Shown: piece after piece, positions 20,549 to 39,684 of the stretch
Layout of the letters: every line of letters starts with the position of its first letter
Numbering within the stretch: the first letter of the stretch is position 1
From: a virus
IMG/VR virus record: IMGVR_UViG_3300032893_000149
Location: 1-39,684 of that record
Direction: 5' to 3' (one strand)
DNA: 39,684 nt
Notes under the pieces: generated by a model
Told to the model about the DNA's origin: nothing
The model's database searches: none
The model's input: only the letters and a program-made list of their open reading frames with translations
Position numbers and translations under genes: made by a program

Positions 20549-20552
20549 TAGA

Positions 20553-22052: not shown

Positions 22053-22053
22053 T

Positions 22054-22803
22054 TTATTGTCTTACCACCTTATGTTTTACGGGGAGTATTACTGGTGCGT
22101 CGGGTTGGTACGCTGTGATTGCAGTGCTGATGTTACTCATAGAATCATTTTGTGCAATGGTCCAAGAGAGTGAATTAGCTCCAACGCTCACAGGACCAGC
22201 ATAAGCAAGATCACCTGCAACTACAGGCGATGACGTACACAAATTACATTTATAGGCTTGGGTCTGTCCATTGTTTTCATTGAACAAAAGCATGTTATTC
22301 GACATCCATCCGCCAACCAACCAGTCATTGCTTTTTGTGGCGGTAATTGTTGGTGAACTAAACGTCGCAAAAGCCGCAGCACCACCAATGACCGCAATGC
22401 TGTGTGCGTCAATTGGATTTGTCTGGTTAACTCCTTTCAGGGTCACCGCAGCACACCAGAAACCCTCAAAAGCGTTGTTTAATGGTGCTGCAAATGTGAC
22501 TTGAATGTTATGTGCGCCTGTAGCTGGAGCAGTCATGTAAAATTGTGCCAAGCGACGATTACCACTTCCCGAAGTCTGGTCAAGCTGAGTAAGCGAAACT
22601 CCGTTGTAACTGATACTCGATAGACTAGTGTCACCTGAGTACCAGCCACACTCGACATGCATCACTAGCTTGGTGCCAGTCGTTGTGTGAGACCATGTGT
22701 ATACTTGATTGCCAGAACCAGCCGTGTAGCTCGTATTGTCGTAACCAATAGCAGCAGACAACAAAACAGGAATCAAGAAGAGTAAAAAGAGTCGTTTTAG
22801 CAT
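22054..22803 (-). CDS. Exported beta-sandwich protein in head gene cluster
   Basis: A 249-residue protein. Residues 1-18 (MLKRLFLLFLIPVLLSAA) are a signal peptide. The rest is a beta sandwich with the pattern GNQVYTWSHTTTGTKLVMHV, ISYNGVSLTQL, RLAQFYMTAPATGAHNIQVT and AVTLKGVNQTNPIDA, a domain type seen in secreted bacterial and phage structural proteins. Two Cys near residue ~190 (CNLC) could form a disulfide outside the cytoplasm. Its stop lies 1 nt from the next start and its ATG overlaps the previous stop by one base, so it is co-transcribed. Precise function unknown. Confidence 0.65.
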   Translation of the reverse strand: MLKRLFLLFLIPVLLSAAIGYDNTSYTAGSGNQVYTWSHTTTGTKLVMHVECGWYSGDTSLSSISYNGVSLTQLDQTSGSGNRRLAQFYMTAPATGAHNIQVTFAAPLNNAFEGFWCAAVTLKGVNQTNPIDAHSIAVIGGAAAFATFSSPTITATKSNDWLVGGWMSNNMLLFNENNGQTQAYKCNLCTSSPVVAGDLAYAGPVSVGANSLSWTIAQNDSMSNISTAITAYQPDAPVILPVKHKVVRQ

Positions 22804-24290: not shown

Positions 24291-24294
24291 TGCG

Positions 24295-25800
24295 TTACTG
24301 CGTTGAGCCTCTTTCTGTCACATTCATTGCGAGTGTCGGTGGTGTAACTGTTGTTTGTGTTTGTGGTGCGGTCTCGATCTCGTCAATACACTGCTGAATA
24401 AGATCGGAATTGGCGTCCTTCAGATACGCACGCACGAGCTTCTTTCTGGTTTCCTTGATGAATGTCTCTGAGGGAATATTCAGCGAGTCAACCAGGGCAT
24501 TCAGTTCGGCAAGCGCTTGTGCAACATCCTCGCTGAAGATCATTCCACGCACGTCAACCGCTGTGTTGTCGTTGCGAATCTCTGCGATGTCCTCAAGTGC
24601 GTCCTGTATGGCTGTGCGAATCAAAGTGCCGAATACATTGAGTACGTCGGCTGCTGGTTGCATGTCGATCTCTTTGCTAACTGCGGATTGCACCGTTGCA
24701 GAGGCTCGACTAGATCTGCCTTGTGCTACCAAATGGCAAAGTCTGTAAATGTTCTCACGAAGAGATTCCAGATAAGCCTGTGTGGACTTCCAGCTTTCGC
24801 CCTTTGGTTCGACGTACTCAAATTTGCTGTCAGGTGCCGGGAGAGTAATTGCTGCGTACTCTGCCACTGTGACGTTTGCGGAAACCTCAGTGTCTTTACC
24901 GTTAGTGAAAACAGGCAGAGGATTATTCGCCAACCAAAGCGACCAACCGTAAGAGTTCTCCGTGTTCAGATGGTCAAGACACGGAAGGAACACTCTATTA
25001 CCGAGCCAGAGTTTATCACCAGTCTCAACACAAGTCAGCGGGACCTCTTGTAATCCTGCCATGGCGTGTAATCCGAGATCGACAAGTGTTGCTTTCGTCG
25101 GCTTGTTTGCGTTTGGCTCCCACTCAGCCTGATACACTGCATAGGTCGTCTTGTCGTAATAGCTCCACCGTTCAACATTTTTCGGAGTGCCAAGAAAGCT
25201 CTGAACCACATCGAGAGAATGCAGTACGACCCATTCGAACTTGCCGTATTTGTCTTTCTGGTAATTGATGACTGACCAAGGATCGACATGCACAAAATAT
25301 GGAGAATTGCCGCCTAATGCCTCTTGTTCGGCGAGGGATACTGGTGTTACGGCCAGCTTCGGCAGATCGATCAGAAAGTACGAGCGCCCATATACCAGAC
25401 TTTCGACGGCGACATTCTCAAAAAAGCGTGCCAGAGATGTCCCTGAGTTGTCGCAATCTTCGAGTAGTTCTTTGTAGTATTTCGCCGTATCTGCCGGGAG
25501 AGCAGCTACACCATCAACCTTCCAATCGTACTCAAGGTTGTTCTCGAAAAGTTTGCTCGTGTAATAGCTGACAATCGAGGAAATAATGTTAGTGTATGTG
25601 AGCTTGCTGAGACGCTGTACGTACGATGTTCCAAGCTCCTTCTGCCGCTTAACAAGAAATCGTGATCCGTTGTCCTTGAGTTGCTTACCGCCGACGAAAA
25701 GCAATCTCAACTGTGCGAGAAGATCGGCATTGGCTGTTACATCTGGATGAGTCTGATTGATTGCCAGGATGTCTACTTCTGGCGGAAATTGGTTTGTCAC
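24295..25800 (-). CDS. Portal protein
   Basis: A 501-residue protein starting at GTG. It is helical and charged with aromatic patches (KLTYTNIISSIVSYYTSKLF, then SLVYGRSYFLIDLPKL and SVINYQKDKYGKFEWVVLHS). These patterns are characteristic of portal proteins of the DUF4055/SPP1 gp6 type, which form the dodecameric DNA channel at one capsid vertex. It follows the large terminase directly. There is no Shine-Dalgarno sequence; an ATAAATAA box ends 5 nt before the GTG, so a leaderless message is predicted. Confidence 0.8.
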   Translation of the reverse strand: MTNQFPPEVDILAINQTHPDVTANADLLAQLRLLFVGGKQLKDNGSRFLVKRQKELGTSYVQRLSKLTYTNIISSIVSYYTSKLFENNLEYDWKVDGVAALPADTAKYYKELLEDCDNSGTSLARFFENVAVESLVYGRSYFLIDLPKLAVTPVSLAEQEALGGNSPYFVHVDPWSVINYQKDKYGKFEWVVLHSLDVVQSFLGTPKNVERWSYYDKTTYAVYQAEWEPNANKPTKATLVDLGLHAMAGLQEVPLTCVETGDKLWLGNRVFLPCLDHLNTENSYGWSLWLANNPLPVFTNGKDTEVSANVTVAEYAAITLPAPDSKFEYVEPKGESWKSTQAYLESLRENIYRLCHLVAQGRSSRASATVQSAVSKEIDMQPAADVLNVFGTLIRTAIQDALEDIAEIRNDNTAVDVRGMIFSEDVAQALAELNALVDSLNIPSETFIKETRKKLVRAYLKDANSDLIQQCIDEIETAPQTQTTVTPPTLAMNVTERGSTQ

Positions 25801-25805
25801 GTAGG

Positions 25806-25813
25806 TTATTTAT
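25806..25813 (-). promoter_or_regulatory. Putative late promoter box ATAAATAA (portal)
   Basis: It lies in the 16-nt gap between the large terminase stop and the portal GTG. Distance to the start codon equals that at the 86-aa gene (box at 1893..1900). Confidence 0.55.
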
Positions 25814-25816
25814 CTT

Positions 25817-27274
25817 CTACATTATGCTGGTAGTAATAAACTGGATCGTTCGCTTGCGGCATTTCTCCATCTTCAAAAGTGCTTGCGTCATAGCATCAAC
25901 AACGTCATCATTCTTCGCTCTCGGAAATAACATAACCTCTTTGAGAAAGTCTTCCTTCCACGTTGCCTTTTCCGGGATGTACACGTTTCCTGCTTCGATC
26001 ATCGGCGATACAGCAGATAGACGGCTCTCTTTGGAGTTCTTGCCGGGATCTACTGCGATGATGCCACTGACTACCTTACGCAACATACTGATAATCGCTG
26101 GTCCGTTGGCTTTATCCTCGATCAGCTTGGTTGTCACATGCGGATATTTTGCACAGAACATCTGAAAGGCATCGACGGTCTGAACAAAATCCATCTGCTT
26201 ACGGTACTGATCGATCAAATAGAACTCTGCTTTGCTCCGTGCCCAATATTGAAACACCACATAATCGTTTTGCTTACCACCTTTAAAACTGAGATCACAA
26301 CTGATTACGTGTTCGTCCCATTCGGTTGGTAGATTGTGTTGATTCCACTCTCTGAACCAATCAGGATTCACCATGCCGCCTGTTTTTGCGACTGGTTGCT
26401 GTTGATATTGACCTTGGTATGCGAGAGAACCGAGACTCAGCTTGCGCTCCTCAGTCGCTTTCTCATCGAAGATCTGCGGCCAGAGAAGTGCGCCATCACC
26501 TTGTTCGGCTCGTGGATCAGACCAGCCAATTGATGTGACCTTGTGCGTGAAACTGTCATACTCGTTGGGCAATACTAGATGGTCGAATCCAAGGTTGCGC
26601 TCAAGTAGATGCCCTGTGAGATCGTCCTGGTGAAGCCGCTGACAGACGAGTATGATTGAGGCTCCCGCTGAGATACGGTTCGAGAGTCCTTGGTCGTATA
26701 TCTGAAGGTCTTTTGCTCGTACTTCGTCTGAGAGAACTTCAGAGACATTGTGTGGGTCGTCCAGAATCAGAGCGCCATGACCAGAAGCTCCGAATCCCAT
26801 AGCGTTTTGATAGGCACAGCAGCGACGGGAGCCTGATCTTGTGTTGTCGAAAACCTCTATAGTCTCTCGATCTAACTGAATAATATCACCCCAATTCTGC
26901 TGATACCACTCACTCTTGATGACTTTCTGAGCCTTAATTGAGAAGTCCCATGCGAGGTTTGTTGAGAAGGATGTACAGAGAAAGCGAGACTCCGGGTATC
27001 TGATCCACACCCACATCGGCCAGAAAATCGAGACTATGATGCTCTTGCCGAATCGTGGTGGTGTGTTGATGATGAGCTTGCGTATCTGCCCATCTGTGAC
27101 CGCTTGAAGGTGCTCACACATCGCTGCATGGTGGATGCCCTCGACGTATGGTGTGGTAGGTTCGAGGATCGGCCATGCTTGCTGCACGAAATATCTGAAG
27201 TTACGAGCAGCAAGTTCTCCTTTTGCGGCTTGTTCTTCTAGGATTGCTTTACGGAGTTTATCTTGTTGTGTCAC
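25817..27274 (-). CDS. Terminase large subunit
   Basis: A 485-residue protein starting at GTG. The ATPase part has Walker A TPPRFGKS (71-78) and Walker B ALILDD (168-173) followed by PHN. The C-terminal RNase-H-like nuclease shows SCDLSFKGG near 330, a later EDKANG, and KNDDVVDAMTQALL near the end, supplying the acidic metal ligands. This is the TIGR01630-type large terminase that pumps DNA into the prohead and cuts it. A serine recombinase on the opposite strand separates it from the small subunit. A weak GTAAATAC box is 4 nt before the GTG. Confidence 0.9.
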   Translation of the reverse strand: MTQQDKLRKAILEEQAAKGELAARNFRYFVQQAWPILEPTTPYVEGIHHAAMCEHLQAVTDGQIRKLIINTPPRFGKSIIVSIFWPMWVWIRYPESRFLCTSFSTNLAWDFSIKAQKVIKSEWYQQNWGDIIQLDRETIEVFDNTRSGSRRCCAYQNAMGFGASGHGALILDDPHNVSEVLSDEVRAKDLQIYDQGLSNRISAGASIILVCQRLHQDDLTGHLLERNLGFDHLVLPNEYDSFTHKVTSIGWSDPRAEQGDGALLWPQIFDEKATEERKLSLGSLAYQGQYQQQPVAKTGGMVNPDWFREWNQHNLPTEWDEHVISCDLSFKGGKQNDYVVFQYWARSKAEFYLIDQYRKQMDFVQTVDAFQMFCAKYPHVTTKLIEDKANGPAIISMLRKVVSGIIAVDPGKNSKESRLSAVSPMIEAGNVYIPEKATWKEDFLKEVMLFPRAKNDDVVDAMTQALLKMEKCRKRTIQFITTSIM

Positions 27275-27278
27275 TTAT

Positions 27279-27286
27279 GTATTTAC
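27279..27286 (-). promoter_or_regulatory. Weak late-type box GTAAATAC (large terminase)
   Basis: A degenerate member of the box family stands 4 nt before the GTG start. No Shine-Dalgarno sequence is present. Included because spacing matches the better boxes at the portal and HTH genes. Confidence 0.3.
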
Positions 27287-27478
27287 TGTCGAGCCGAACC
27301 ACGAAATTGAGATTTTGTTTATAAAATTCCGTGCTTACCTGAAAACGCCGCCCTCCGAAAATAATCGAGATCGACTTACGGTGCCGGATGGTGAGTAACC
27401 CCAAGTATCTTTGTTACCTGTTACTTACAGCCAAAAGCATCGTCTAATGGTAATAGATAGTTTGCAGGAGACAATGAG

Positions 27479-28162
27479 ATGAAGGCATTCGGTTACATCA
27501 GAGTCAGCGGCAAGGGTCAGATCAACGGAGACGGTCCTGAGAGACAAGAGCAGGCTATCAGAGACTACGCAGCCGCAAATGGACATGAGATTGTCACCAT
27601 TTACTTTGAGAAGGGTGTTTGTGGTGACATTGAGACTATGGATCGGCCAGCATTCGTTGAGATGATGACTGCTTTAATGTCCAATGGTGTTCGCACTGTC
27701 GTGGTGGAGAAGCTAGACCGCTTATCTCGCCATCTCATCACCCAAGAGACCTGTATTCAAGACTTTGCGAAGCAGGGAATCACACTGTTATCTGCCGATC
27801 CCGCTGAGGTAGACTTAATGGCTAACGATCCAGGGCGTATCTTTGTCAGACAGGTCTTTGGTGCGTTGGCTCAATACGACAAGGCAATGCTCGTCGCCAA
27901 GCTGAGAGCCGCCAGAATGCGTAATAAGGCTGCTGGTAAGCGTATGGAGGGTCAGAAGCCATATGGGAGCCGTCCTGGTGAGCAAGCGATTGTAGAGCGT
28001 ATTAATGCCATGTATGCCCAATCTATCTCGTGTCAAACCATCGCCGACACTTTGAACGCTGAAAGTATCGCCCCACGCAAAGGCAAATGGCACGCTAAGA
28101 CGGTCTCTCGAATCGTCTCTAGGACAGATTCCGTAGAAACTGTCAAATCTCTCGCTGCATAG
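27479..28162 (+). CDS. Serine recombinase (resolvase/invertase-like)
   Basis: A 227-residue protein. The resolvase catalytic domain begins MKAFGYIRVSGKG with nucleophile Ser10, followed by ERQEQAIRDYA and VVVEKLDRLSR with the conserved active-site arginines. The C-terminal part (QTIADTLNAESIAPRKGKWH) is a short helix-turn-helix recombinase domain. A strong AGGAGA ribosome site precedes the ATG. It is oriented against the terminase genes and sits between them, so it looks like an inserted module. It could resolve genome multimers, invert DNA or move itself. The prophage integrase is a separate, larger serine recombinase near attR. Confidence 0.85.
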   Translation: MKAFGYIRVSGKGQINGDGPERQEQAIRDYAAANGHEIVTIYFEKGVCGDIETMDRPAFVEMMTALMSNGVRTVVVEKLDRLSRHLITQETCIQDFAKQGITLLSADPAEVDLMANDPGRIFVRQVFGALAQYDKAMLVAKLRAARMRNKAAGKRMEGQKPYGSRPGEQAIVERINAMYAQSISCQTIADTLNAESIAPRKGKWHAKTVSRIVSRTDSVETVKSLAA

Positions 28163-28294
28163 TGTCAGATACCCTCTCAGATATGCTCTCAGACACCCTC
28201 TCAATCGCTCACAGAAGCCCTCAGTTGCATCGGCGCACTCTCAGCGATACTCAGAGACCCCCGACGACTCCAAATCGCTCTCAGAAGCCATCAG
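28162..28294. repeat. Helically phased YTCAG/CTCTCAG repeat array
   Basis: Ten TCAG-type heptamers begin at 28162, 28174, 28186, 28198, 28208, 28218, 28238, 28248, 28278 and 28288. Spacing is 12 bp at first and then exact multiples of 10 bp, so all sites face one side of the helix. Most match CTCTCAG or differ at one or two bases. The array lies between the convergent 3' ends of the resolvase and the small terminase. Confidence 0.65.
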
Positions 28295-28467
28295 AAAAGA
28301 ACCGAGCGAGGAGCGCAGCGACGAAGCGAGGACATAACAAGGTTAGTAACATCCACATAACATTTCCCCTGAGACGAGACAACATTAGAAAAACGACAAT
28401 TTCCTATTTTGTCGTTAAGCTGGCTGTCAATTTGCTATACACTATTGGCGGTTCTTAGTGGTGGGAG
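28295..28467. other. Rest of the non-coding gap between resolvase and small terminase
   Basis: The gene-free interval 28163..28467 holds the phased TCAG array and then, at about 28302..28331, a purine-rich block of GAGCG/AGCGA units (GAGCGAGGAGCGCAGCGACG). The remainder is AT-rich with no convincing gene. A GTG-initiated frame across it mostly translates the repeats and is not accepted as a gene. Confidence 0.5.
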
Positions 28468-28974
28468 TTACTGCAAACGCTCAGAAGGAACGTCAATCGT
28501 TGTGCCTTCTAGCAGTCTACGATTGGTCTCAGCGTTCTCAATGTACTGCTGAAGCTGCACGTCGGACAGTTTGCTCAGATCGGGCTTATTGAGGTTGTGA
28601 TCGATCTGCCCTGTAACATTGATCTCTTTAACCTCACCCCAATTACTCTTAAAACGTCGCTCCAAAAAAGCTGCAACCGCTCTGTGATTTTTGGTGCTCG
28701 TCGCAAGCTCTTTGAAACGTCCGACCATCTCAAGCTCAAGCTCTGCGTCGGCATCAAGCACTTTCAAAAAGAAATCGTGGTACGGAGACTGCTCGTCCTG
28801 TCCCTCATGCAGCCAGCTTTGCACAACCTCTGGAGACACACCTTGCTTGCGTGATGCCGTAGAGATGTGAAGACCTCGGCGTACAAGATCACAAAAGTCA
28901 CTGACCCACTTCTTGTCTTGGAGTTTTATTGGTAGATCGTTGCTGATAGGGATTAGTTTTTGCAGTCTTTGCAT
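28468..28974 (-). CDS. Terminase small subunit
   Basis: A 168-residue protein. An N-terminal helix-turn-helix (FCDLVRRGLHISTASRKQGV, then SPEVVQSWLHEG) is followed by a long helix (LDADAELELEMVGRFKEL) and an Ala/Leu-rich helical region containing HRAVAAFLERRFKSNWG. Both are typical of small terminases that recognise the packaging site and form rings. It overlaps the upstream HTH gene by 22 nt. The phased repeat array lies just past its 3' end. The assignment rests on fold pattern and context with the large subunit. Confidence 0.75.
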   Translation of the reverse strand: MQRLQKLIPISNDLPIKLQDKKWVSDFCDLVRRGLHISTASRKQGVSPEVVQSWLHEGQDEQSPYHDFFLKVLDADAELELEMVGRFKELATSTKNHRAVAAFLERRFKSNWGEVKEINVTGQIDHNLNKPDLSKLSDVQLQQYIENAETNRRLLEGTTIDVPSERLQ

Positions 28975-29141
28975 GGGATAAAGTCTTTCAGGAATTTTCG
29001 GAGAGCCACATCTGTAACGAACCAGTTGCGACCACCAGGAAGTTTATGAGCGGTGATTTTATTCCGACGTATCCACTCGCAGACAGTGTACTCTCTTACG
29101 TGACACAGTTGAGCGATTTGGCGTACATCATAGAGGACCAT
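28953..29141 (-). CDS. Small MerR/excisionase-type HTH protein
   Basis: A 62-residue protein: VRQIAQLCHVREYTVCEWIR (residues 6-25), then KITAHKLPGGRNWFVTDVAL and an FLK helix. This is the winged HTH pattern of HTH_17/excisionase-like DNA-binding proteins. It ends CKDCKN. It overlaps the small terminase start and has an ATAAATAT box 4 nt before its ATG with no ribosome site. It may regulate packaging or late genes, or recognise DNA with the terminase; this is inferred from position. Confidence 0.65.
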   Translation of the reverse strand: MVLYDVRQIAQLCHVREYTVCEWIRRNKITAHKLPGGRNWFVTDVALRKFLKDFIPCKDCKN

Positions 29142-29145
29142 GATT

Positions 29146-29153
29146 ATATTTAT
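29146..29153 (-). promoter_or_regulatory. Putative late promoter box ATAAATAT (HTH protein and small terminase)
   Basis: It lies 4 nt before the ATG at 29141, again with no Shine-Dalgarno sequence. It stands downstream of the terminator at 29166..29200, so it would restart transcription. Confidence 0.5.
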
Positions 29154-29165
29154 TCACCGAAACAC

Positions 29166-29200
29166 AAAGGGCGGCAAGATATTTAACCTCACCGCCCTTT
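29166..29200 (-). terminator. Hairpin terminator between small genes and terminase operon
   Basis: A 9-bp perfect stem AAAGGGCGG/CCGCCCTTT with a 17-nt loop follows the 61-aa gene. The T tract is short, so termination may be partial or bidirectional. Confidence 0.6.
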
Positions 29201-29610: not shown

Positions 29611-30330
29611 TTAGAAAATCTCTTCATTACTGGTACTCATTACACACAGCGGGTATGGCATCAAGCGATAGTCGGTGGTATTTTTCCATTTACCCGACGC
29701 TCCATTACACTGTTCGCATAACGGCTGAATGTTTGTGATCCAGTTCGAACCACCTTTACACAGCGGTATTACATGATCTTGTTCAATGGGTGATGACAGT
29801 TCTGACTCGTGTCGTCCGCAACAAAGACACCTGTTGTGATACTTCGCTTTTAGTGCCAACCATTCGTCTGATGTGTGACTGCCTTCAGCTTGTTTGCGTC
29901 TGGCATTTGCTTTTTGTATGCTGGTTCGATGAACTGCTTTGCCTTTTTCGGTAGTTCGATACCACTTCATGTATTCACAATCTTTGGCTCTTTTCTCTGG
30001 GTTGTTGCGACGGTATTCACGCAGGTATTCACGCCTTTTGACTTTGACTTCTGGGTCTTCGTAGTATTTACGGTTGTATTCACGCCGTTTCGCTTTGAAT
30101 TCTGGGGTCTGTTTGTATTCACGTAGTTTCGCTTTACGCTCCGGGTTGTTATAGTATTCACGCTGTTTAGTCTTAGACTCTGGTTTTTGACGGTATTCAC
30201 GAGTCTTTTCTGCATGGCACACTATACAACCGCCATTTCTTACAAACTTAAGCGTCCCGCCACAGTTCTTGCAGGGTTTGCCGTGATAATGTTTAGGATT
30301 GTCTGGTGATAAATGCTTTGTAGATTTCAT
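29611..30330 (-). CDS. HNH endonuclease with zinc ribbon and tandem REY repeats
   Basis: A 239-residue protein. A zinc ribbon (C20, C23, C35, C38) is followed by tandem charged repeats of ~13-15 residues (REYRQKPESKTKQ, REYYNNPERKAKL, REYKQTPEFKAKR and further copies) from ~44 to ~125. The C-terminal HNH nuclease has C168/C171, D185-H186, a central Asn and C205/C208 (QDHVIPLCKGGSNWITNIQP). HNH proteins beside terminase genes assist genome packaging in many long-tailed phages; homing nuclease is the alternative. It has a consensus TATAAATA box, a 7-bp leader hairpin and an AGGAG ribosome site. Confidence 0.85.
   Translation of the reverse strand: MKSTKHLSPDNPKHYHGKPCKNCGGTLKFVRNGGCIVCHAEKTREYRQKPESKTKQREYYNNPERKAKLREYKQTPEFKAKRREYNRKYYEDPEVKVKRREYLREYRRNNPEKRAKDCEYMKWYRTTEKGKAVHRTSIQKANARRKQAEGSHTSDEWLALKAKYHNRCLCCGRHESELSSPIEQDHVIPLCKGGSNWITNIQPLCEQCNGASGKWKNTTDYRLMPYPLCVMSTSNEEIF
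29990..30205. repeat. Tandem ~45-bp repeats coding for the REY units
   Basis: GTATTCACG (or GTATTTACG) recurs at about 30013, 30026, 30064, 30077, 30116, 30151 and 30192, within repeats of about 36-45 bp inside the HNH gene. Confidence 0.7.
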
Positions 30331-30396: not shown

Positions 30397-30404
30397 TATT
30401 TATA
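30397..30404 (-). promoter_or_regulatory. Putative late promoter box TATAAATA (HNH gene)
   Basis: An exact match to the T4 late consensus box, intergenic, 66 nt before the HNH start codon. Confidence 0.6.
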
Positions 30405-30429: not shown

Positions 30430-30606
30430 CTACTTCAGAACTGGGTAAACTGTGACGGTAGTTGCTTTGGTCTTCGCTGGCTTGTTGACGTAGTTCTTGA
30501 GGGATTCTAATGCTGCAAAGATGTCAGCTTCTTCTGCGAGATTTTCGAGCCATCCGTACAACACCGTGAATTCGCTGTTTATGAAGTTTCTGTCGTCTTG
30601 AGACAT
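30430..30606 (-). CDS. Small acidic helical protein (58 aa)
   Basis: From the Met at 30606 it encodes MSQDDRNFINSEFTVLYGWL and then a helical AALESLKNYVN region and a Lys/Thr-rich tail. GTG codons at 30616..30621 could extend it by a few residues. It overlaps the next entry in another frame by 83 nt, so either two overlapping genes or one gene with a frame change is present. No ribosome site is obvious. No family recognised. Confidence 0.45.
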   Translation of the reverse strand: MSQDDRNFINSEFTVLYGWLENLAEEADIFAALESLKNYVNKPAKTKATTVTVYPVLK

Positions 30607-30703
30607 ATGCCGGGACACCACTCAGGTCAACAAGGTTCCAATCCGTGTCTTCCTGGAATTCCGAATCGAGCCAATCATTGAGTCGAGACACATTGGTCGT
30701 CAT
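30524..30703 (-). CDS. Small overlapping ORF (59 aa)
   Basis: ATG at 30703 begins MTTNVSRLNDWLDSEFQEDT, 8 nt after an exact TATAAATA box. The first ~35 residues look protein-like (acidic, Trp-containing). The last ~25 are Arg-rich and overlap the neighbouring frame, which looks more natural there. This suggests that only the first part is real and that a +/-1 shift near 30600-30620 joins the two frames, or that two small genes overlap. Confidence 0.35.
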   Translation of the reverse strand: MTTNVSRLNDWLDSEFQEDTDWNLVDLSGVPAYVSRRQKLHKQRIHGVVRMARKSRRRS

Positions 30704-30711: not shown

Positions 30712-30719
30712 TATTTATA
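30712..30719 (-). promoter_or_regulatory. Putative late promoter box TATAAATA
   Basis: An exact TATAAATA, intergenic, between the sigma-like gene and the small overlapping ORFs. Confidence 0.6.
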
Positions 30720-30828: not shown

Positions 30829-31542
30829 TTAGGCTGCTGCTAACGCCACTAACGCTCTCTTCTTTCTCACTTCTGGCGGTTTAATTTTGCCATCACGAGC
30901 ATTCTGGGCGAGTTGCAGCGCTTCTTCGAGTGTTTTGCGACTACCATAATATCTCCGACCAATGCTGACCAAGTAACGTTGACGCCGAAAATACACGTTA
31001 GGTGCGACTGTTACACTTTTGTTTGTCTCCGTTGCTTTTTTCTTCCGGGACACTTTGCGAATCTTTTTACGGGTCACAATCTTACTCACCCGCTGTCGCC
31101 ACTCCTGATACCCTTCGTGATCCTGATTGACCTTGCGTTGTTGCCTTGTGTAGTTTTCGTGGCTGCATTCGAGGTTTTCACTAATAAACATCGAATGGTA
31201 AGACTTTTTTTGCATGTCTCGTATCATTCTCAAAAACACTCGATAGATGATCTGAGTAATATAAGCAAAGGCATTGTGGGTCTTCTGTGGGTTGTAGTTG
31301 TGCAGATACCGAATACACGCTAGACAACCCTCAGAAATCATATCCTCGATCATGGTGTAGCTGGCGAAATTTGGACGCTTGGCTAAATTTTGGGAGATCT
31401 TCAGAATCGATTCAGCGACGTACTCAGGCAGTTGCGGTATAGGTTGGTCGGCTGCGAGAGCTTCTTTTCGGGCGGTGATCCATGCTGTCAATTCGGTGTG
31501 CAGTCGGCTGTTGTCTACGTACAAGTTTTTGCGTTGGGGCAT
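30829..31542 (-). CDS. T4 gp55-like late sigma factor with AP2-like C-terminal domain
   Basis: A 237-residue protein. Residues ~7-115 follow the T4 gp55 pattern in order: YVDNSRLHTELTAW, then LAKRPNFASYTMIEDMISEG, then LHNYNPQKTHNAFAYITQII and FLRMIRDMQKK. In T4, gp55 binds the host RNA polymerase core and recognises TATAAATA late promoters. A very basic linker (~150-175) leads to residues ~180-218 (NVYFRRQRYLVSIGRRYYGS, then TLEEALQLAQNARDG), which resemble an AP2-type DNA-binding domain. The gp55 C-terminal clamp-binding motif is absent. It probably switches on the late operons. A CTCTCAG cluster lies 30-60 nt upstream. Confidence 0.75.
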   Translation of the reverse strand: MPQRKNLYVDNSRLHTELTAWITARKEALAADQPIPQLPEYVAESILKISQNLAKRPNFASYTMIEDMISEGCLACIRYLHNYNPQKTHNAFAYITQIIYRVFLRMIRDMQKKSYHSMFISENLECSHENYTRQQRKVNQDHEGYQEWRQRVSKIVTRKKIRKVSRKKKATETNKSVTVAPNVYFRRQRYLVSIGRRYYGSRKTLEEALQLAQNARDGKIKPPEVRKKRALVALAAA

Positions 31543-31571
31543 GTCGATATGTATATGAGCGATATCGGGGT

Positions 31572-31601
31572 CTGAGAGGGCGGCTGAGGGTTGGCTGAGA
31601 G
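31572..31601 (-). repeat. CTCTCAG cluster upstream of the sigma-like gene
   Basis: Three heptamers (CTCTCAG, CCCTCAG, CTCTCAG on the minus strand) lie at 31595..31601, 31584..31590 and 31572..31578, spaced 11-12 bp. They stand where an operator or activator site for the gene starting at 31542 would lie. A CATATACATA stretch between cluster and ATG could serve as a -10 region. Confidence 0.5.
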
Positions 31602-31649
31602 AAAGCTGTAACTACCCGAACTTTTGATCGGATATACACATCAATAAAA

Positions 31650-31909
31650 AGTCCGCCGCTACGCCTTATAGAGCGTAGAGGTTCGGCGGACTCTATTTAA
31701 GTCTTTTAACTCCAATGGAATGCGGGGAATAAGGACCTTTTCAAAAAAATCACTTCGGCGGACTCTTTTGTATATCTCTTTGGCTCTTCAGAGTCCGCCG
31801 AGCCAAAAAGTTTGTATAGTGCTGTTTTTCGCTGTAACTTATAGAACCAACGACACTTAACTAGAGTCCGCCGGGAATAAACGCATATAGTAAGGATTCG
31901 GCGGACTCT
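31650..31909. repeat. Six-copy AGAGTCCGCCGA inverted-repeat array
   Basis: Copies start at 31650 (+), 31683 (-), 31755 (-), 31790 (+), 31863 (+) and 31898 (-). Start-to-start distances are 33, 72, 35, 73 and 35 bp. The first and last copies are slightly altered; the core GTCCGCCG is invariant. The first pair forms a hairpin with an extra CTACGC/GCGTAG stem. The motif was not noticed elsewhere in the window. Confidence 0.85.
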
Positions 31910-31961
31910 TGTTGGGAGTATAAAGCTGTAACTATCCTGAGTAGTTGTAACTGACCCTGAC

Positions 31962-31991
31962 TTGACAGATTTGAAAGTCGTGTTGTGATAG
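31962..31991 (+). promoter_or_regulatory. Sigma70-type promoter candidate for the early operon
   Basis: TTGACA (31962..31967) is followed at 18 bp by TGATAG (31986..31991). The -35 is perfect and the -10 is weak. It points towards the excisionase-like gene and lies just after the GTTGTAACT repeat. Confidence 0.4.
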
Positions 31992-32036
31992 ATAGTGACA
32001 TGTGATGAGATTTAATGACAGAGAAAAACAAGCGTG

Positions 32037-32044
32037 TATAAATA
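32037..32044 (+). promoter_or_regulatory. Plus-strand TATAAATA box before the excisionase-like gene
   Basis: An exact match 18 nt before the ATG at 32063, leaving room for the AGAGGA ribosome site. It would place the rightward operon partly under late control. Confidence 0.5.
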
Positions 32045-32062
32045 GAAATAGAGGATACGACA

Positions 32063-32245
32063 ATGACGATTCCGAACAACGAACGCTTTTGGTCGCCGGA
32101 AGAACTTGCTCAGGAGTTTGGGCTTAAGCTGGTCACGGTTAGAAGCTGGATTAGGTCCGGTCAACTTCAGACGATCAGGATAGGAGACAGACACAGAGTA
32201 TACGAGAGCTATTGGCAACAGTTTCTCGACAAGTGCAACAAATAA
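32063..32245 (+). CDS. Excisionase-like HTH DNA-binding protein
   Basis: A 60-residue protein with the HTH_17/MerR-type pattern: FWSPEELAQEFGLKLVTVRS (9-28), then WIRSGQLQTIRIGDRHRVYE. It is preceded by AGAGGA. This fold is used by phage excisionases and small regulators. It is the first gene of the rightward operon, and it could direct excision with the large serine integrase or control the divergent region. Confidence 0.7.
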   Translation: MTIPNNERFWSPEELAQEFGLKLVTVRSWIRSGQLQTIRIGDRHRVYESYWQQFLDKCNK

Positions 32246-32248
32246 AAA

Positions 32249-32280
32249 TGCCGCCGACAGTAAGAGACTGTGCGACGGCA
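32249..32280 (+). promoter_or_regulatory. Intercistronic hairpin between excisionase-like and primase genes
   Basis: TGCCGCCGACAGT pairs with ACTGTGCGACGGCA across a 5-nt loop, with one small internal mismatch. It begins 3 nt after the stop codon and ends just before the AGGAAAAACGAG ribosome region of the next gene. It lacks a T tract, so mRNA processing or attenuation is likelier than full termination. Confidence 0.5.
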
Positions 32281-32292
32281 GGAAAAACGAGA

Positions 32293-34401
32293 ATGAATGA
32301 CAATATTTACACACCAGATGAAGCAAGACAATTTGTAGAAGCTGCCAATAAGCTATACGACACAGCACAGCAGCAACTCAATCCAGCCAAAGTAAAAGCA
32401 ACTGCATCTTGGCTACGTGCCCACAAGCTGCATTTTGTGGTCGCAGAAGCCACCAAGAACAAAATCGAAGACGCTAATGGTAAGGTCTACGAATACCCTG
32501 CTGTTGGTAAGAAGACACAGACGAAAGGTTGGCCTGATCTCGCTCTCAAGGATGCAATCGCTGTAGATGACATTCCGCCAACCGCCAATATTGGAGTGCA
32601 AACCGGGACGCCAGTCGAGCGTGATGGTGTCACTTACACTTTTGCCGAGCTTGATTTTGACGTAATTCGTTTTATTCCAATTTGGCAGAAGGTCGTCAAG
32701 TATTGCGGACTGCCCAACACAATCAGATGGGGTAGAGAGGGTAAGCGTGATAGTCACTGTGGGTGGTTGATTGATCGGGCAATACCAAGCGTGGCACAGG
32801 ATGTTGAGATTAGATGTCAATCGTCTAACGGTGAGTATGCGCCTTACGGTAAGCAGACAATATGTTGGGGTTCCGTATGGGCAAAGGACGGCAAAGTAGA
32901 AGACATCACGCTTGAGGATGATTCCGCTGATGATTTTGCGACCATCAAGACGGATGATCTGCTCTTTGCGTATGACCTGATGTACGCCGTAGATGCGCTT
33001 GCTCCAGTGTTTCCAGAGCATCCAAGACACTCTCTCTATCCAGCGATCTTATACACAGCAGCAAGACGTGGTATGCCGAAAGAGCGTGCATTGGCTGTGT
33101 GCCTTACGCTTAACGATTGCAGCGTTAATCCAGAGCGCAACAAAAGTCTATTTCACCAATGGACTAATACGGCATACGATGACATCGCCAATAATCGCCA
33201 CAACAAGCAATGGGTAGACAAACAAGGAAAGACCCACGAGCCTGTACACTATCTTGGTATTCCATTTTTGCTGGCAAAGATCGCCAACGGCGACAAAGAA
33301 ATTGAGAAGAAGGTCAACTACTTTTTGACTGTGTTGGGTCTTGCTGATACAAAAACAAAAGATGCTGCACAGTCTGATCCAAACGTCTTCACACTCAAGG
33401 ATCATCGCAAAGTTGATGTCGCCAAAACATTTCAGCAGTTGTTGACAAAGAATCTCCGCACGATGGTTGTCCCACCAATCGAGTACCTGTGCGACCCATA
33501 CATCCCAATGTACAGTGTCACAGCGATATGTGGTGAGGCTGGTAGCGGCAAGTCAACATGGTTGCATCGGGCATTGCATGTGGCTGCGAATAAGAATAAG
33601 AAGCTGCGTGTCATCTATGCAGACCGTGACAATGCGATCTCATTTGTCAAGCCTAGATCGGAAACCTTAAGCGTTGGGCTTGAAGATCGTATCAGTTATT
33701 GGAGTGGCGGTAATCTTGATGAGTCTGGCAAGATTGACGAGCCATGGGACATCGAAGAAGCTGCGTGGATGGGATTGATCGAGCAAATCAAGGCTGCTGG
33801 TGAAGAGCCAGTTCTTGTTTTTGACACGCTGAATTCTTTTCTAAATGGTCAAAACGAGAATGACAATAGCGTTGTCGGCGCATTGCTCACATTCACTCGC
33901 AAGATGGCACATGCTGGTGCGACTGTGATAATTGTCCATCACACAGGTAAGAGCGCAACCAGCAAAGAAGCTCGTGGTGCCAGCGTCTTCAAGGGTTCAG
34001 TTGATGCACTCTGGGTAGTCGATTCTGATTTCGAAGAAGACCGTCCGTCGATGATTAAAGAGATGCGTCTCACACCCAAAAAGTCAAGACTAGGTGACGG
34101 AGTAGTGTTTCGTTACAGCATGGTTGATGGGGTTCCTACTCTCAAAGATCAAGAGCCAAGTGATGAGGATTTGCTTGAATTCATCGAGCAAAATGAGGGT
34201 AAGTCAAAAGAGCAAATTATCGCAGCGTCAAAAGGCAAATTCCGAAGACAGACTCTCCGGGATGCATTCGACAAATTCCTGGTTGGCAAAAAACTCAAGC
34301 TGGTCAAAATGAAGGTGTACATGTACGGCACAGAGGTTCAAGGCGACAAGAAGCCGACAAAAAGCAAGTTAGCAATGATTAAGCAGGAGATTTCACAATG
34401 A
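32293..34401 (+). CDS. Primase-helicase (Prim-Pol-like plus RepA-type ATPase)
   Basis: A 702-residue protein from the Met at 32293 (MNDNIYTPDEARQFVEAANK), chosen because it follows a hairpin and a ribosome-site-like AGGAAAAA. Residues ~115-180 resemble a primase-polymerase active site (FAELDFDVIRF, then NTIRWGREGKRDSHCGWLID). The RecA-like ATPase starts near 410 with Walker A CGEAGSGKST, followed by Walker B VLVFDTLNSF and sensor IIVHHTGK and GSVDALWVVD. The C-terminus is a winged-helix-like tail. It would open and prime the phage origin. The gene overlaps its successor by ATGA. Confidence 0.8.
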   Translation: MNDNIYTPDEARQFVEAANKLYDTAQQQLNPAKVKATASWLRAHKLHFVVAEATKNKIEDANGKVYEYPAVGKKTQTKGWPDLALKDAIAVDDIPPTANIGVQTGTPVERDGVTYTFAELDFDVIRFIPIWQKVVKYCGLPNTIRWGREGKRDSHCGWLIDRAIPSVAQDVEIRCQSSNGEYAPYGKQTICWGSVWAKDGKVEDITLEDDSADDFATIKTDDLLFAYDLMYAVDALAPVFPEHPRHSLYPAILYTAARRGMPKERALAVCLTLNDCSVNPERNKSLFHQWTNTAYDDIANNRHNKQWVDKQGKTHEPVHYLGIPFLLAKIANGDKEIEKKVNYFLTVLGLADTKTKDAAQSDPNVFTLKDHRKVDVAKTFQQLLTKNLRTMVVPPIEYLCDPYIPMYSVTAICGEAGSGKSTWLHRALHVAANKNKKLRVIYADRDNAISFVKPRSETLSVGLEDRISYWSGGNLDESGKIDEPWDIEEAAWMGLIEQIKAAGEEPVLVFDTLNSFLNGQNENDNSVVGALLTFTRKMAHAGATVIIVHHTGKSATSKEARGASVFKGSVDALWVVDSDFEEDRPSMIKEMRLTPKKSRLGDGVVFRYSMVDGVPTLKDQEPSDEDLLEFIEQNEGKSKEQIIAASKGKFRRQTLRDAFDKFLVGKKLKLVKMKVYMYGTEVQGDKKPTKSKLAMIKQEISQ

Positions 34402-34763
34402 TAAGGCATTGTAGTTTTTGCGATGTTGATATTTCAGGCGACACAAAGCCAACACTTATACCAGGAGACGGCATTCGCTACTTCTGTCCGGGAACGATAT
34501 GTGTATCAGAGTACTGCTGGCAACAGTGGCAAGCAAAGGCTGGCTCGACAGAATGGCGGACAGCACGTACTGGCAACTGGTTTAGACAGAGTGGTGAGTT
34601 ACTGTGTGTGGTGTTTAAGCGCAAGGACGGCAAGTTTGGCGGCATGATCTCGGAAAAAGTAGAAGACGGAGAAGTCGCCAATGAACCACCTGTGTTTTTG
34701 AATGATGCCTATTCCGACCCCGAGGAAGCACGCATGGCTGTTGATGATTTACTGGAGGGCTGA
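34398..34763 (+). CDS. Hypothetical Cys-rich protein (121 aa)
   Basis: MIRHCSFCDVDISGDTKPTL begins a short zinc-finger-like segment (CSFC, with CPGTIC and further Cys to ~41). An alpha/beta segment (RQSGELLCVVFKRKDGKFGG) and an acidic tail follow. Its ATG overlaps the primase stop, so it is translationally coupled. No family recognised; the zinc-binding idea is from the Cys spacing only. Confidence 0.65.
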   Translation: MIRHCSFCDVDISGDTKPTLIPGDGIRYFCPGTICVSEYCWQQWQAKAGSTEWRTARTGNWFRQSGELLCVVFKRKDGKFGGMISEKVEDGEVANEPPVFLNDAYSDPEEARMAVDDLLEG

Positions 34764-34766
34764 GTT

Positions 34767-35960
34767 ATGGAGTTCGCAAACAAAGACGGTGCTCGTATAA
34801 AGGCAACACCACACCAAACTGCTACATGTCCTTGCTGTCATGCTGATGTAATTTCCAAGTGTGGCGAGTTGAAGAGATGGCATTGGTCTCACATTAATTT
34901 AAGCGATTGTGATACTTTTGCCGAGCCAGAAACTATGTGGCATCGCAGTTGGAAAGCACGGTTTGTCGAGCCGTGTCAAGAAGTTGTGATGGGTCCACAC
35001 CGCTCTGATATTAAGACAACATTATCAGGTCATGGCGTGTTTCCAGATAACGAGATTGTGATAGAGTTTCAAAACAGTCCTTTGTCTGTAAAAGATGTAT
35101 TAGAGCGTGAAAGTTTCTACGGCAGAATGGTCTGGGTTGTTAATGCAGCCGAATTTAAAGATCATTTTAGACATTCACAAAACAATCGTGTCAGATGGAA
35201 GTGGTCACACACACATTGGACGCACGCCAAGTGTCCTGTGTACCTCGATATGGGCAGCGGTTTGTACTTGATTGAGAGATTCATTAATGGCGGCAAGCTG
35301 TTTGAGTACTCATTTGTCGAGTATGACACGTTTTTGTCTATGTTCAACGGTGTTATTACGCCAACTGATTTCGGTTTTGACACAATAGATCACTATAACA
35401 GCATTGCCAGTCAGATCAATGCACCGATGGGAGTGCATAATCTCAAACAGATATGGATAGATGCTGACACTACACATCCCCCATATGTCCAATTGTACCG
35501 TGGTAGGTTTACTATTTGTGACGGCGACAATGATGGATACGATACAACCATTGATGATGGTGATGATAAAAAAGTGTCTGGACATTTTAACTGTCAATGG
35601 GATGCTGTCATGCACATTGAGCAGTTATTATCGACACCAGAAGGCATATTGCTGTTGACCGGAACTCCAGAACAACAAAGACAGGATGCAGAGAAGAGAA
35701 GGCTTGCAGAAGAGTTCATGCGCCGAATTCGAGAGCAACACTTCTTAAAATGGAAGCCTACTTACAAAGGCAACGAAAGCTCTGAGTTTTGCGGCTTTCG
35801 TGTTGTGGTGAAGCAACTGAATTTTGGCAAGTACACATTCAGCACTCTATATGGTGGTGAATGGCATATGTCTCGTCTTCTTTTTGCGACCGCAGCCGAA
35901 TGTAAGGAATATGTTAGGCAGATGGCAGTAAGATTTTATAACAAACAGAAAGCAGCATAA
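34767..35960 (+). CDS. CoiA-like nuclease protein
   Basis: A 397-residue protein. A CPCC...HWSH zinc-ribbon-like segment (~21-45) is followed by WHRSWKARFVEPCQEVVMG, then HRSDIKTTLSGHG, then EIVIEFQNSPLSVKDVLER and a Tyr-containing helix. This is the order of motifs in CoiA-family nucleases (competence protein CoiA), where the D...ExQ residues form a PD-(D/E)XK-type site. The C-terminal half is less typical. A GGAGGG ribosome site is present. In phage early regions such proteins may process DNA during replication or recombination; the role here is inferred. Confidence 0.65.
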   Translation: MEFANKDGARIKATPHQTATCPCCHADVISKCGELKRWHWSHINLSDCDTFAEPETMWHRSWKARFVEPCQEVVMGPHRSDIKTTLSGHGVFPDNEIVIEFQNSPLSVKDVLERESFYGRMVWVVNAAEFKDHFRHSQNNRVRWKWSHTHWTHAKCPVYLDMGSGLYLIERFINGGKLFEYSFVEYDTFLSMFNGVITPTDFGFDTIDHYNSIASQINAPMGVHNLKQIWIDADTTHPPYVQLYRGRFTICDGDNDGYDTTIDDGDDKKVSGHFNCQWDAVMHIEQLLSTPEGILLLTGTPEQQRQDAEKRRLAEEFMRRIREQHFLKWKPTYKGNESSEFCGFRVVVKQLNFGKYTFSTLYGGEWHMSRLLFATAAECKEYVRQMAVRFYNKQKAA

Positions 35961-35975
35961 AGTGAGGAACCAAAA

Positions 35976-36410
35976 ATGACAAACTATTTAACTTGCAACT
36001 ATTGTGGACTCGACATTGACACCGATCAAGAGTCCTATGTTATCACCGTAGCAAACGCATATCACGACAGATGTGTAGGAGCTTTGATGCCGACGACTCC
36101 GAGGATTTACATTGCGCCGGGGTTTGACACCACGACGGACACACAGCCTGAGTATGACACCTGGACAATCGGCGAGATATCAGCGGACCAAATCACGGCA
36201 GGCACATTGACGCTCGACTCTATGACGTTTGCTGATGATTACACAGCGGACCAAATCAATGCAGCACTCGAAGCACAACAAGAAACTGAGTTCGAAGAGA
36301 TTAGCAGACAGGACGAGTTGTGTTGCTCGTACAAGGACTTTCTCAATCAGCACAACTCACCAGACCATATCTCCAGTGATGAGTGTCCGGTATGCAATGG
36401 TGAACTGTGA
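35976..36410 (+). CDS. Hypothetical zinc-finger-like acidic protein (144 aa)
   Basis: CNYCGLDIDTDQESYVITVA and a nearby HDRC form a possible zinc-binding N-terminus. The middle carries two ADQI repeats (SADQITAGTLTLDSMTFADD and TADQINAALEAQ). A second CxxC (CPVC) stands five residues from the end. The ribosome site is GAGGA. A GTG start overlaps its TGA, giving a coupled small gene. No known family. Confidence 0.6.
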   Translation: MTNYLTCNYCGLDIDTDQESYVITVANAYHDRCVGALMPTTPRIYIAPGFDTTTDTQPEYDTWTIGEISADQITAGTLTLDSMTFADDYTADQINAALEAQQETEFEEISRQDELCCSYKDFLNQHNSPDHISSDECPVCNGEL

Positions 36411-36583
36411 TTATTTTTCAACTGCATGACAACATATACGAAGCTGACGACAGTATACCGCCAGAGTTTTTTGCCGCTATCGACGCCATAATAATCCGCC
36501 GCACAAAAAATATTACTGTAGAAGTGCCAAATGACATAATCGCACGTATAAATACCAGTAACGGTGAGTCAAGGAGCCAGTAG
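36407..36583 (+). CDS. Small GTG-initiated protein (58 aa), translationally coupled
   Basis: The sequence GTGA joins this start to the stop of the previous gene. The frame runs 58 residues, beginning (V/M)IIFQLHDNIYEADDSIPPE and containing AIDAIIIRRTKNITVEVPND. Composition looks like a real small protein. The plus-strand TATAAATA box at 36547 lies inside its 3' part. No family recognised. Confidence 0.5.
   Translation: MIIFQLHDNIYEADDSIPPEFFAAIDAIIIRRTKNITVEVPNDIIARINTSNGESRSQ
36547..36554 (+). promoter_or_regulatory. Plus-strand TATAAATA box upstream of a structured non-coding stretch
   Basis: An exact match to the late box. Downstream lie three hairpins and a terminator but no gene. Confidence 0.5.
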
Positions 36584-36707
36584 GGTTGAGCGATAATCTG
36601 ACGCACCACTGACAACATCGTCAGGCATAACCGCCTTACCTTCCCATTGTTTTGGCGGTATCTCCTAGGCTCCCGGTTTCTCAGTTCCGGGAGCCTTCTC
36701 CTTTTTT
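36560..36707 (+). ncRNA. Candidate late small RNA of ~150 nt
   Basis: If transcription starts ~6 nt after the TATAAATA box it would end at the terminator, giving an RNA with hairpins CTGAC/GTCAG (36609..36624), ACCGCC/GGCGGT (36630..36659) and GGCTCCCGG/CCGGGAGCC (36668..36695). No coding frame fills it beyond the end of the 58-aa gene. Expression is inferred. Confidence 0.4.
36668..36707 (+). terminator. Rho-independent terminator of the primase operon
   Basis: A 9-bp perfect stem GGCTCCCGG/CCGGGAGCC with a 10-nt loop, followed by a pyrimidine run with six T residues (36702..36707). Confidence 0.85.
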
Positions 36708-36733
36708 GGTCGGTAGATGTAAATAAAATAGAT

Positions 36734-36994
36734 ATGACTACTCGACCATACCACTCAGCAATCCTCTCAGCATCCTCTCAGACTCGCACAGACACCCCGA
36801 CTTGGCGCACATCTCAGCGTGGCAATAGGTATCTCATGATCTCGGGCAAGCCAGCTACCGTGATTGAGACGCCAAGAGGATGGTCTTATGTGTATGGTGG
36901 AGAGTTTCAGAATTGCAAATCAGAATTGTTGGCGAGGTTGGCTGTTGAGAGTCTATGGCGGCAGTCTCAGATCCAAGTAGATATAACAAAGTAG
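36734..36994 (+). CDS. Small hypothetical protein (86 aa)
   Basis: Start taken at the Met at 36734 (MTTRPYHSAILSASSQTRTD) because the frame upstream runs back through the terminator. The body (RGNRYLMISGKPATVIETPR, then GWSYVYGGEFQN and a Leu/Ala helix) looks like a small alpha/beta protein. There is no clear ribosome site. The first codons coincide with three CTCAG-type heptamers spaced 11 bp, so the N-terminus and a DNA signal overlap. Function unknown. Confidence 0.5.
   Translation: MTTRPYHSAILSASSQTRTDTPTWRTSQRGNRYLMISGKPATVIETPRGWSYVYGGEFQNCKSELLARLAVESLWRQSQIQVDITK
36752..36781. repeat. CTCTCAG cluster at the start of the 86-aa gene
   Basis: CACTCAG (36752..36758), CTCTCAG (36764..36770) and CTCTCAG (36775..36781), spaced 11-12 bp. 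They match the heptamers beside the small terminase and upstream of the sigma-like gene. Confidence 0.5.
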
Positions 36995-37012
36995 ATGTAT
37001 CTTGTACTAAAC

Positions 37013-37040
37013 TTGACACTTGGGAGACATGCGCTATAAT
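37013..37040 (+). promoter_or_regulatory. Consensus sigma70 promoter
   Basis: TTGACA (37013..37018), a 16-bp spacer and TATAAT (37035..37040) form a perfect-consensus pair with near-optimal spacing. It drives the two small genes at 37211 and 37447 through a 165-nt leader holding an ATATTTTGC direct repeat (about 37083..37108). Good expression in the lysogen is likely unless repressed. Confidence 0.8.
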
Positions 37041-37210
37041 GTAAGTGATGAGAGAGCCGGAGACATCAGCGAGACAAGAAAATATTTTGCAACTATATTT
37101 TGCTTGTTTTCAATGTTATGCGGATGTTGACTCAAAAATGGGCAAAAACTCCGTTTGATCGATGTCTATATATTATTGGCTGATTGAGAAAGCCAAGGAG
37201 AGAAACTGAG

Positions 37211-37435
37211 ATGACCACAGCAGAACGAATCAAATCAGAGCTTATGCAAGGACGCAGCACAACCGCCGTGATATGTGCTGCTACAGGACTATCGCACACA
37301 GCAGTCGAGTCAGCGCTACGTCGGATGCTGCGTATCGGAGTGGTGCGGAGAGTGGGTTGGGGATTGTACGAGTTGTCTGAGCTATCCGTATCAGGCAAAA
37401 CAACAATGACCGATATAATGTTGAGAGATGAGTAG
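37211..37435 (+). CDS. Small winged-helix DNA-binding protein
   Basis: A 74-residue protein from the Met at 37211, chosen for its AAGGAGA ribosome site. MTTAERIKSELMQGRSTTAV, then CAATGLSHTAVESALRRMLR (helix-turn-helix) and GVVRRVGWGLYEL (wing) form a compact winged helix. It is the first gene behind the strongest promoter in the phage, so it is a plausible lysogeny regulator or repressor, though no CI-like homology is seen. It is separated from the next gene by 11 nt. Confidence 0.65.
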   Translation: MTTAERIKSELMQGRSTTAVICAATGLSHTAVESALRRMLRIGVVRRVGWGLYELSELSVSGKTTMTDIMLRDE

Positions 37436-37446
37436 GAGAGACGAAA

Positions 37447-37644
37447 ATGAGAAATAAACAATGGCAGAAAGTGACAGTGATGGGTGGTGAGATCGTTGAC
37501 AACTGCGGACACATGCATGATGCGGTAGACGACGCTGCCCAATGCGATGGTATAGCAGACAGATGGGACAATACCGGACCAGCGTTTGAGCGTGTTGTGG
37601 TGGACCAGGACGGCAGAATGTTTGGACGGTTTAATCCCGAATAA
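37447..37644 (+). CDS. Small hypothetical protein (65 aa)
   Basis: The sequence starts MRNKQWQKVTVMGGEIVDNC and contains HMHDAVDDAAQCDGIADRWD, an acidic helix, and an RVVVDQDGRMFGRF strand. An AGGAGA site precedes the ATG, and the gene is co-transcribed with the winged-helix gene and ended by a terminator. No known family. Confidence 0.6.
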   Translation: MRNKQWQKVTVMGGEIVDNCGHMHDAVDDAAQCDGIADRWDNTGPAFERVVVDQDGRMFGRFNPE

Positions 37645-37673
37645 GCAGCATTTCTAAATTCAAATTTTTCTTG

Positions 37674-37713
37674 AGACCCTGTTGGCGCAAGCTGGCAGGG
37701 TCTTTCTGTTTTT
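37674..37713 (+). terminator. Rho-independent terminator before the integrase gene
   Basis: Stem AGACCCTG/CAGGGTCT with a 14-nt loop followed by a T-rich run. It isolates the integrase from the upstream promoter. Confidence 0.8.
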
Positions 37714-37767
37714 GCCCCATCTCAGCAGAACCACATCTCATCTCATCATCATCTCTTCCACAGGCGG

Positions 37768-37796
37768 TTGCATTCGTCCTCTACAAGTGGAACAAT
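37768..37796 (+). promoter_or_regulatory. Weak promoter candidate for the integrase
   Basis: TTGCAT (37768..37773), a 17-bp spacer and AACAAT (37791..37796) lie directly before the ATG at 37803, leaving almost no leader. The match is modest. Confidence 0.25.
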
Positions 37797-37802
37797 TGGG
37801 GT

Positions 37803-39672: not shown

Positions 39673-39684
39673 GTGCAATCCTAC

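Follow-up and report, generated by a model that had tools for sequence, protein, structure and literature searches.

A gp55-family late sigma factor and a matching late-promoter motif in a temperate siphovirus-type prophage without recognisable gp33 or sliding clamp genes

Late transcription in bacteriophage T4 is the textbook case in which a replication clamp acts as a transcription activator, and the gene of the late sigma factor gp55 is counted among the core genes of T4-like phages. A gp55-type gene on the minus strand (30829-31542) of IMG/VR record IMGVR_UViG_3300032893_000149, whose 39,684 nucleotides were analysed over their full length and are referred to here as the window, raises the question of how such a sigma factor might operate in a genome of a different kind. 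A preliminary description of the sequence had placed the gene in a temperate siphovirus-like prophage with a serine integrase, lambda-like tail genes and no visible gp33 or clamp, and had suggested that an AP2-like domain at the C-terminus of its product supplies DNA contacts instead.

The gene starts with ATG and encodes a protein of 237 amino acids, in which sigma region 2 and a helix-loop-helix (HLH) occupy about residues 1-170, a basic linker spans about residues 150-175, and the C-terminal segment of about 60 amino acids carries no assignment. The PHROGs profile phrog_234 ('late sigma transcription factor') matched residues 3-170 of 237 to profile positions 5-171 of 181 (E=2.6e-42), the Pfam profile Sigma70_r2 matched the 237-amino-acid protein with a score exceeding the gathering score (2.9e-8), and T4 gp55 (7d7c_F) was the top PDB match by sequence (6.9e-11). 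Only region 2 was matched, sigma region 4 giving no match in the Pfam, PHROG and NCBIfam searches. The three N-terminal blocks that had initially been likened to T4 gp55 (YVDN, KRPNFASYT..DMISEG and HNYNPQK..NAFAYITQ..FLR) aligned in order with T4 gp55 and eight other gp55s. An AlphaFold model of the protein, computed with 34 gp55 sequences from viral contigs as input, reached a pLDDT of 93-98 for residues 11-130 and contained helices at 65-82, 91-137 and 144-173, the latter two forming the long H4/H5 hairpin; the HLH was modelled less confidently (pLDDT 63-94 across residues 121-170). The top PDB fold match of this model was again T4 gp55 (7d7c_F; probability 1.00, rmsd 1.8 Å, 109 columns). 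The comparison of profile and structure with T4 gp55 that had been proposed as a check therefore gave gp55 as the family, with no reassignment of the N-terminal domain, and the protein genuinely belongs to the gp55 sigma family.

The residues that read the late promoter are largely maintained. In T4 gp55 the pockets for late-promoter A-12, A-9 and A-8 are lined by N13, L54, R57, F86, H95, Y97 and T99 (PMC7892883), to which N11, L53, R56, Y83, F92, Y94 and T96 of the prophage protein correspond by alignment. Five of these residues (T4 N13, L54, R57, Y97 and T99) are identical, and the two changes are aromatic, F86 being replaced by Tyr and H95 by Phe, the Phe (F92) being common to cyanophages. 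Among the acidic residues that bind the RNA polymerase clamp helices (T4 E70, D74 and E77), the first two are still acidic (D67 and E71), while E77, a core-binding residue, and R114, which contacts the template strand, are not kept (L74 and Q111).

The sigma gene lies in a prophage of about 39.4 kb that is integrated and complete, since both ends of the window hold halves of one host gene. The left flank (1-126, minus strand) continues an interrupted NCS2/xanthine-uracil permease gene (..MIYIIFVNPAILHETGMPLAAVTAATC..), and the right flank (39569-39684, minus strand) holds its first codons (MSLRSRLEHYFQFQPLGARWRTEILAGFTTFMTM). Both halves run in one direction, and the joined peptide matched Pfam Xan_ur_permease (8.6e-5) without reaching the curated cut-off; G+C content is 0.65 in the first 126 bases and 0.61 in the last 116 bases. 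At these attL/attR-like junctions the NCS2-type permease is split after about 34 codons. The late arm (219-30703, minus strand) comprises terminase, portal, capsid, tail and fibre genes, and no sheath gene was seen in it. It is interrupted between the small and large terminase genes by an insert that opposes its direction (27479-28458, plus strand) and consists of a second, short serine recombinase and a small downstream ORF. The early arm (32063-39581, plus strand) runs to the right from an excisionase/MerR-like gene through a replicative ATPase/primase-helicase and small genes to a large serine integrase (37671-39581, plus strand), whose gene ends at the right junction. Also in the early arm is a gene (34767-35960, plus strand) whose product matches the CoiA N-terminal domain (Pfam 7.3e-9) and, weakly, the CoiA nuclease. 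Scans of the window for Rfam families and tRNA genes gave no hits. The serine integrase and the lambda-type head and tail genes are thus real, and the temperate siphovirus-type context is firmer than could be known at first, both host junctions lying inside the window.

The gp55 gene is the first leftward gene, separated from the early arm by a divergent control region of 520 bp (31543-32062) with three inverted-repeat pairs of AGAGTCCGCCGA. Six copies of this repeat occur at 31646-31913 in both orientations, spaced by about 36/72/34/73/36 nt, and the region has a fold z-score of -4.7 (as DNA); the pairs may act as operators for a repressor, as replication iterons or as terminators.

Promoter sequences were approached by an unbiased count of all 6-, 7- and 8-mers in late-arm noncoding DNA against a first-order Markov expectation, with no motif assumed. 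The top words were TAAATA, TAAATAA and ATAAATA (p 1e-9 to 1e-12), and TAAATA/ATAAATA forms the core of the late promoter (N)ATAAATA of T4 and cyanophages. TAAATA occurred at 13 sites on the sense strand compared to 0 on the antisense strand of late-arm noncoding DNA; its observed count was attained in 0 of 20,000 per-segment shuffles, and it stayed at rank 1 among all 6-mers with automatic gene calls. The exact sequence TATAAATA, the late promoter of T4 and KVP40 (PMC2984593), was found 4 times, compared to 0.32 expected, and in cyanophage S-PM2 the late promoter has been published as NATAAATA (PMC2984593). Beyond the six core bases, which are invariant by construction since the sites were picked by their core, A stands at position -12 in 9 of 13 sites and at -5 in 9 of 13.

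TAAATA is present in 12 of the 16 late-arm gaps, including those of the terminase subunits, portal, capsid, tail, tape-measure and tail-tip genes. Late-promoter-like GATAAATA lies on the minus strand upstream of 1627-1887 (at 1894-1901), of 17915-18328 (18363-18370) and of the portal gene at 24295-25800 (25807-25814); CATAAATA lies upstream of the tail-tip gene at 6271-10302 (10341-10348, minus strand) and of the tape-measure gene at 11459-14086 (14105-14112, minus strand). AATAAATA precedes 19430-20059 (20123-20130, minus strand) and, at 29147-29154, forms with a TAAATA core at 29180-29185 a pair (29147-29185, minus strand) upstream of the small terminase gene (28468-28974). Single TAAATA cores on the minus strand precede the tail protein gene at 15020-16033 (16080-16085), the major capsid gene at 18438-19346 (19421-19426) and the large terminase gene at 25817-27274 (27280-27285). 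Exact TATAAATA stands upstream of the HNH endonuclease gene at 29611-30330 (30397-30404, minus strand), of 30524-30703 (30712-30719, minus strand) and, on the plus strand, of the excisionase/MerR-like gene at 32063-32245 (32037-32044). At three TAAATA sites the motif shares bases with the TAA stop codon of the gene before it. Ahead of 1627-1887, 24295-25800, 25817-27274 and 30524-30703 the core lies 6-9 nt before the start codon, a spacing that implies either leaderless transcripts or starts annotated too early. Together with profile, fold and promoter-pocket residues, this genome-wide motif bears out the gp55-type late sigma factor that had been proposed.

The two partners on which full-strength late transcription depends in T4 were not found. 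The sliding-clamp profiles PF02916 and PF00712 had no match in the window, gp45 of T4 and P-HM2 had none at E<0.1, and T4 gp33 had none at E<=10 with filters off, a search that a very divergent gp33 could escape. Similarity to gp33, gp45 or clamp-loader proteins was nil in the window at E<=0.1 with filters off, and other T4-like genes were lacking at E<=10. Since the prophage is complete, such absences are informative. The earlier remark that no gp33 or clamp is visible holds, in that no gp45, beta-clamp or recognisable gp33 is present in the window. If gp33 and gp45 are taken to define the clamp-coupled T4 system, the prophage gp55 falls outside it.

We consider it very probable that gp55 drives a late regulon in this temperate siphovirus-type prophage, acting either on its own or together with a partner that comes from the host or has gone unrecognised. 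The protein would bind the core of the host RNA polymerase and direct it to single (N)ATAAATA promoters ahead of the head, packaging and tail genes, and plausibly serves as the lytic-phase late switch, a job held in lambda by the Q antiterminator. Because the prophage encodes neither a clamp nor a recognisable gp33, the protein would have to work in a gp33-independent, gp55-only mode or else with such a partner. In T4, gp33 and the clamp are dispensable for accurate initiation at late promoters by gp55 and core polymerase, although this activity is weak and greatest on supercoiled DNA; on relaxed DNA T4 gp55 alone is weak and salt-sensitive (PMC2988020). Moreover, gp33 represses the basal activity of T4 gp55, and the C-terminal tail of gp55 is dispensable for basal transcription (PMC2988020, PMC7892883); a phage without gp33 would therefore need no clamp to lift this repression. 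The most economical reading is a late switch operated by gp55 alone. Since T4 gp55 alone is weak and salt-sensitive, a partner may nevertheless exist, and a poorly conserved gp33 could be missed.

A more specific version of this switch assigns a role to the C-terminus of the sigma factor. The prophage gp55 ends in ..EVRKKRALVALAAA, which differs from the acidic-hydrophobic clamp-binding tail, and no C-terminal sliding-clamp-binding motif was found in it. The basic linker that had been described is present, but an AP2 domain supplanting the clamp contacts was not established: Pfam gave no AP2 match, and a single-sequence model of the isolated C-terminus was helical, of poor confidence (pLDDT 64) and unlike AP2. 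The segment shares 39% identity over 54 amino acids with a Herelleviridae protein annotated as 'ERF', itself without a Pfam AP2 match. Pfam, PHROGs, PDB sequence searches and modelling all failed to confirm an AP2 domain, and PDB matches of the C-terminus to designed PPR proteins were discarded as repeat artefacts, leaving the AP2 call as a weak lead. The basic stretch and the C-terminal 60 amino acids may add DNA affinity, as the clamp does in T4. It is possible, though on balance doubtful, that this amounts to a clamp-independent, replication-uncoupled late switch in which the extension replaces gp33 and gp45 as a tether; in such a case it would bind DNA and hold RNA polymerase at the single-element promoters. 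Several cyanophage gp55s (L003, L004, L005 and L010) end shortly past the HLH and by eye show no obvious T4-type clamp-binding tail, and the cyanophages with such short gp55s nonetheless carry g33 and g45. Because these aligned proteins are also short, loss of the T4-type tail is not peculiar to the prophage; the unusual feature is the total absence of gp33 and gp45.

The strongest alternative to this clamp-free reading, though an unlikely one, is that the sigma factor depends on a clamp after all, with the host beta clamp, or else a small phage protein that escaped recognition, taking the place of gp33/gp45. The weakness of T4 gp55 as an initiator on its own speaks for it, as do the several small unassigned ORFs that adjoin the sigma gene and the poor conservation of gp33 homologues, while the nil result for gp33, gp45 and clamp-loader similarity at E<=0.1 and a C-terminus unlike a clamp-binding tail speak against it.

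Much less probable is a reading in which the TAAATA boxes serve as the -10 elements of ordinary host promoters, with the gp55-like gene as incidental cargo. TATAAA does resemble a -10 box, and lambda shows a modest genome-wide TAAATA excess (10 compared to 2.8 expected); however, the word is absent from the coding (sense) strand of lambda at 1-22 kb, and four other control phages showed no TAAATA enrichment. In addition, no -35 signal accompanied the TAAATA sites (mean match 3.15, compared to 3.15 in the null), the top word was TAAATA and not TATAAT, and the pocket residues for the motif are retained in the sigma factor.

The prophage locus, for which we favour a gp55-only or partner-assisted late switch, has no counterpart among the gp55 loci fetched from elsewhere. 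Other gp55 loci adjoin T4-like genes in 120 of the 122 that were fetched, and none resembles this prophage. Aligned gp55s used as a query on viral contigs retrieved 80 loci, and genome contigs yielded 42; at least two T4-like marker matches accompanied all 80 of the former and 40 of the latter. The two exceptions (L132 and L134, contigs of 22 and 254 kb) have divergent short gp55s and no genes like those of the window. Their gp55-like ORFs (L134:9797-10216 and L132:9836-10198) match phrog_234 at 1e-16 and 4e-12 on contigs with no or one T4 marker, and possibly belong to an additional gp55 branch of large phages. When about 1,440 genomes from four phyla were searched with profiles, strong gp55 matches were confined to the seed genomes. 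A phage collection gave 2,167 gp55 matches, and among the about 95 matches listed all came from records larger than 100 kb except one 4.9-kb fragment, although a small genome may stand among the remaining matches. In the open-access literature we found no description of gp55 in an integrating siphovirus-type phage.

Searches of viral contigs for relatives of the sigma factor, the large terminase and the primase returned only L002 (IMGVR_UViG_3300032897_000119), a contig of 10,225 nt that is 100% identical to 18913-29137 and stops short of the sigma gene; no second member of the system, and hence no conservation of its architecture, was seen in these searches. In a gp55 tree the prophage protein sits on a long branch with no close sister, a position uninformative about its origin. 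That L002 covers 18913-29137 only, without the sigma gene, would fit a chimeric contig in which a T4-like fragment was joined to a siphovirus prophage, yet this is highly improbable given that no further T4-like gene occurs at E<=10, G+C content is even across the join (0.45-0.49), the gp55-type motif spans the siphovirus late genes from 1.9 to 30.7 kb, and the sigma gene lies on its own long branch with no T4-like contig close to it. Least credible of all is a generic alternative sigma factor of the FliA or ECF type merely resembling gp55, as the weak general sigma-70 profile matches (4e-7) are below the curated cut-off, gp55 scores at least 30 orders of magnitude better and is the top fold match, region 4 was not found in the Pfam, PHROG or NCBIfam searches, and the N-terminal YVDN block and the Y/T pocket are gp55-specific.

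The prophage system thus resembles that of T4 in a sigma factor with region 2, the helix-loop-helix and most promoter-pocket residues, and in TATAAATA-type promoters that lack a -35 element and have structural genes as their predicted targets. It differs in being housed in a complete 39-kb integrated siphovirus-type genome without gp33, gp45 or any other T4-like gene, and in a gp55 that carries an extra basic linker and a C-terminal segment of about 60 amino acids in place of the acidic-hydrophobic tail. The closest cultured relatives among the matches listed were gp55s of cyanophages (Kyanoviridae; 36-43% identity, 105-140 amino acids), which share the NATAAATA promoter consensus and the Phe in place of T4 His95; however, these proteins are shorter and lack the C-terminal extension, and cyanophages are large lytic myoviruses encoding g33 and g45 (PMC2984593). 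With lambda Q, which acts in late antitermination, and Mu C the prophage gp55 would share the early-to-late switch position in a temperate life cycle, but Q is an antiterminator and Mu C an activator of the host holoenzyme, whereas gp55 is neither and would act as a promoter-specificity sigma factor at many dispersed promoters. Sigma genes are also carried by temperate Bacillus phages; those are sporulation-like, resemble host sigF/sigG, have no homology to gp55 and are held to be nonessential for core phage functions (PMC9429907).

In summary, a gp55 sigma factor with a matching late regulon stands in a kind of genome for which it had not been anticipated. Its dispersed regulon belongs to a small integrating phage that encodes neither a clamp nor a recognisable gp33, which means that the sigma factor is separable from the clamp/gp33 machinery. 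The prophage offers a natural minimal system in which the roles of gp33 and the clamp, and the need to couple late transcription to replication, can be examined. To antitermination by lambda Q and the activators P2 Ogr and Mu C it would add a further type of late control among temperate phages.
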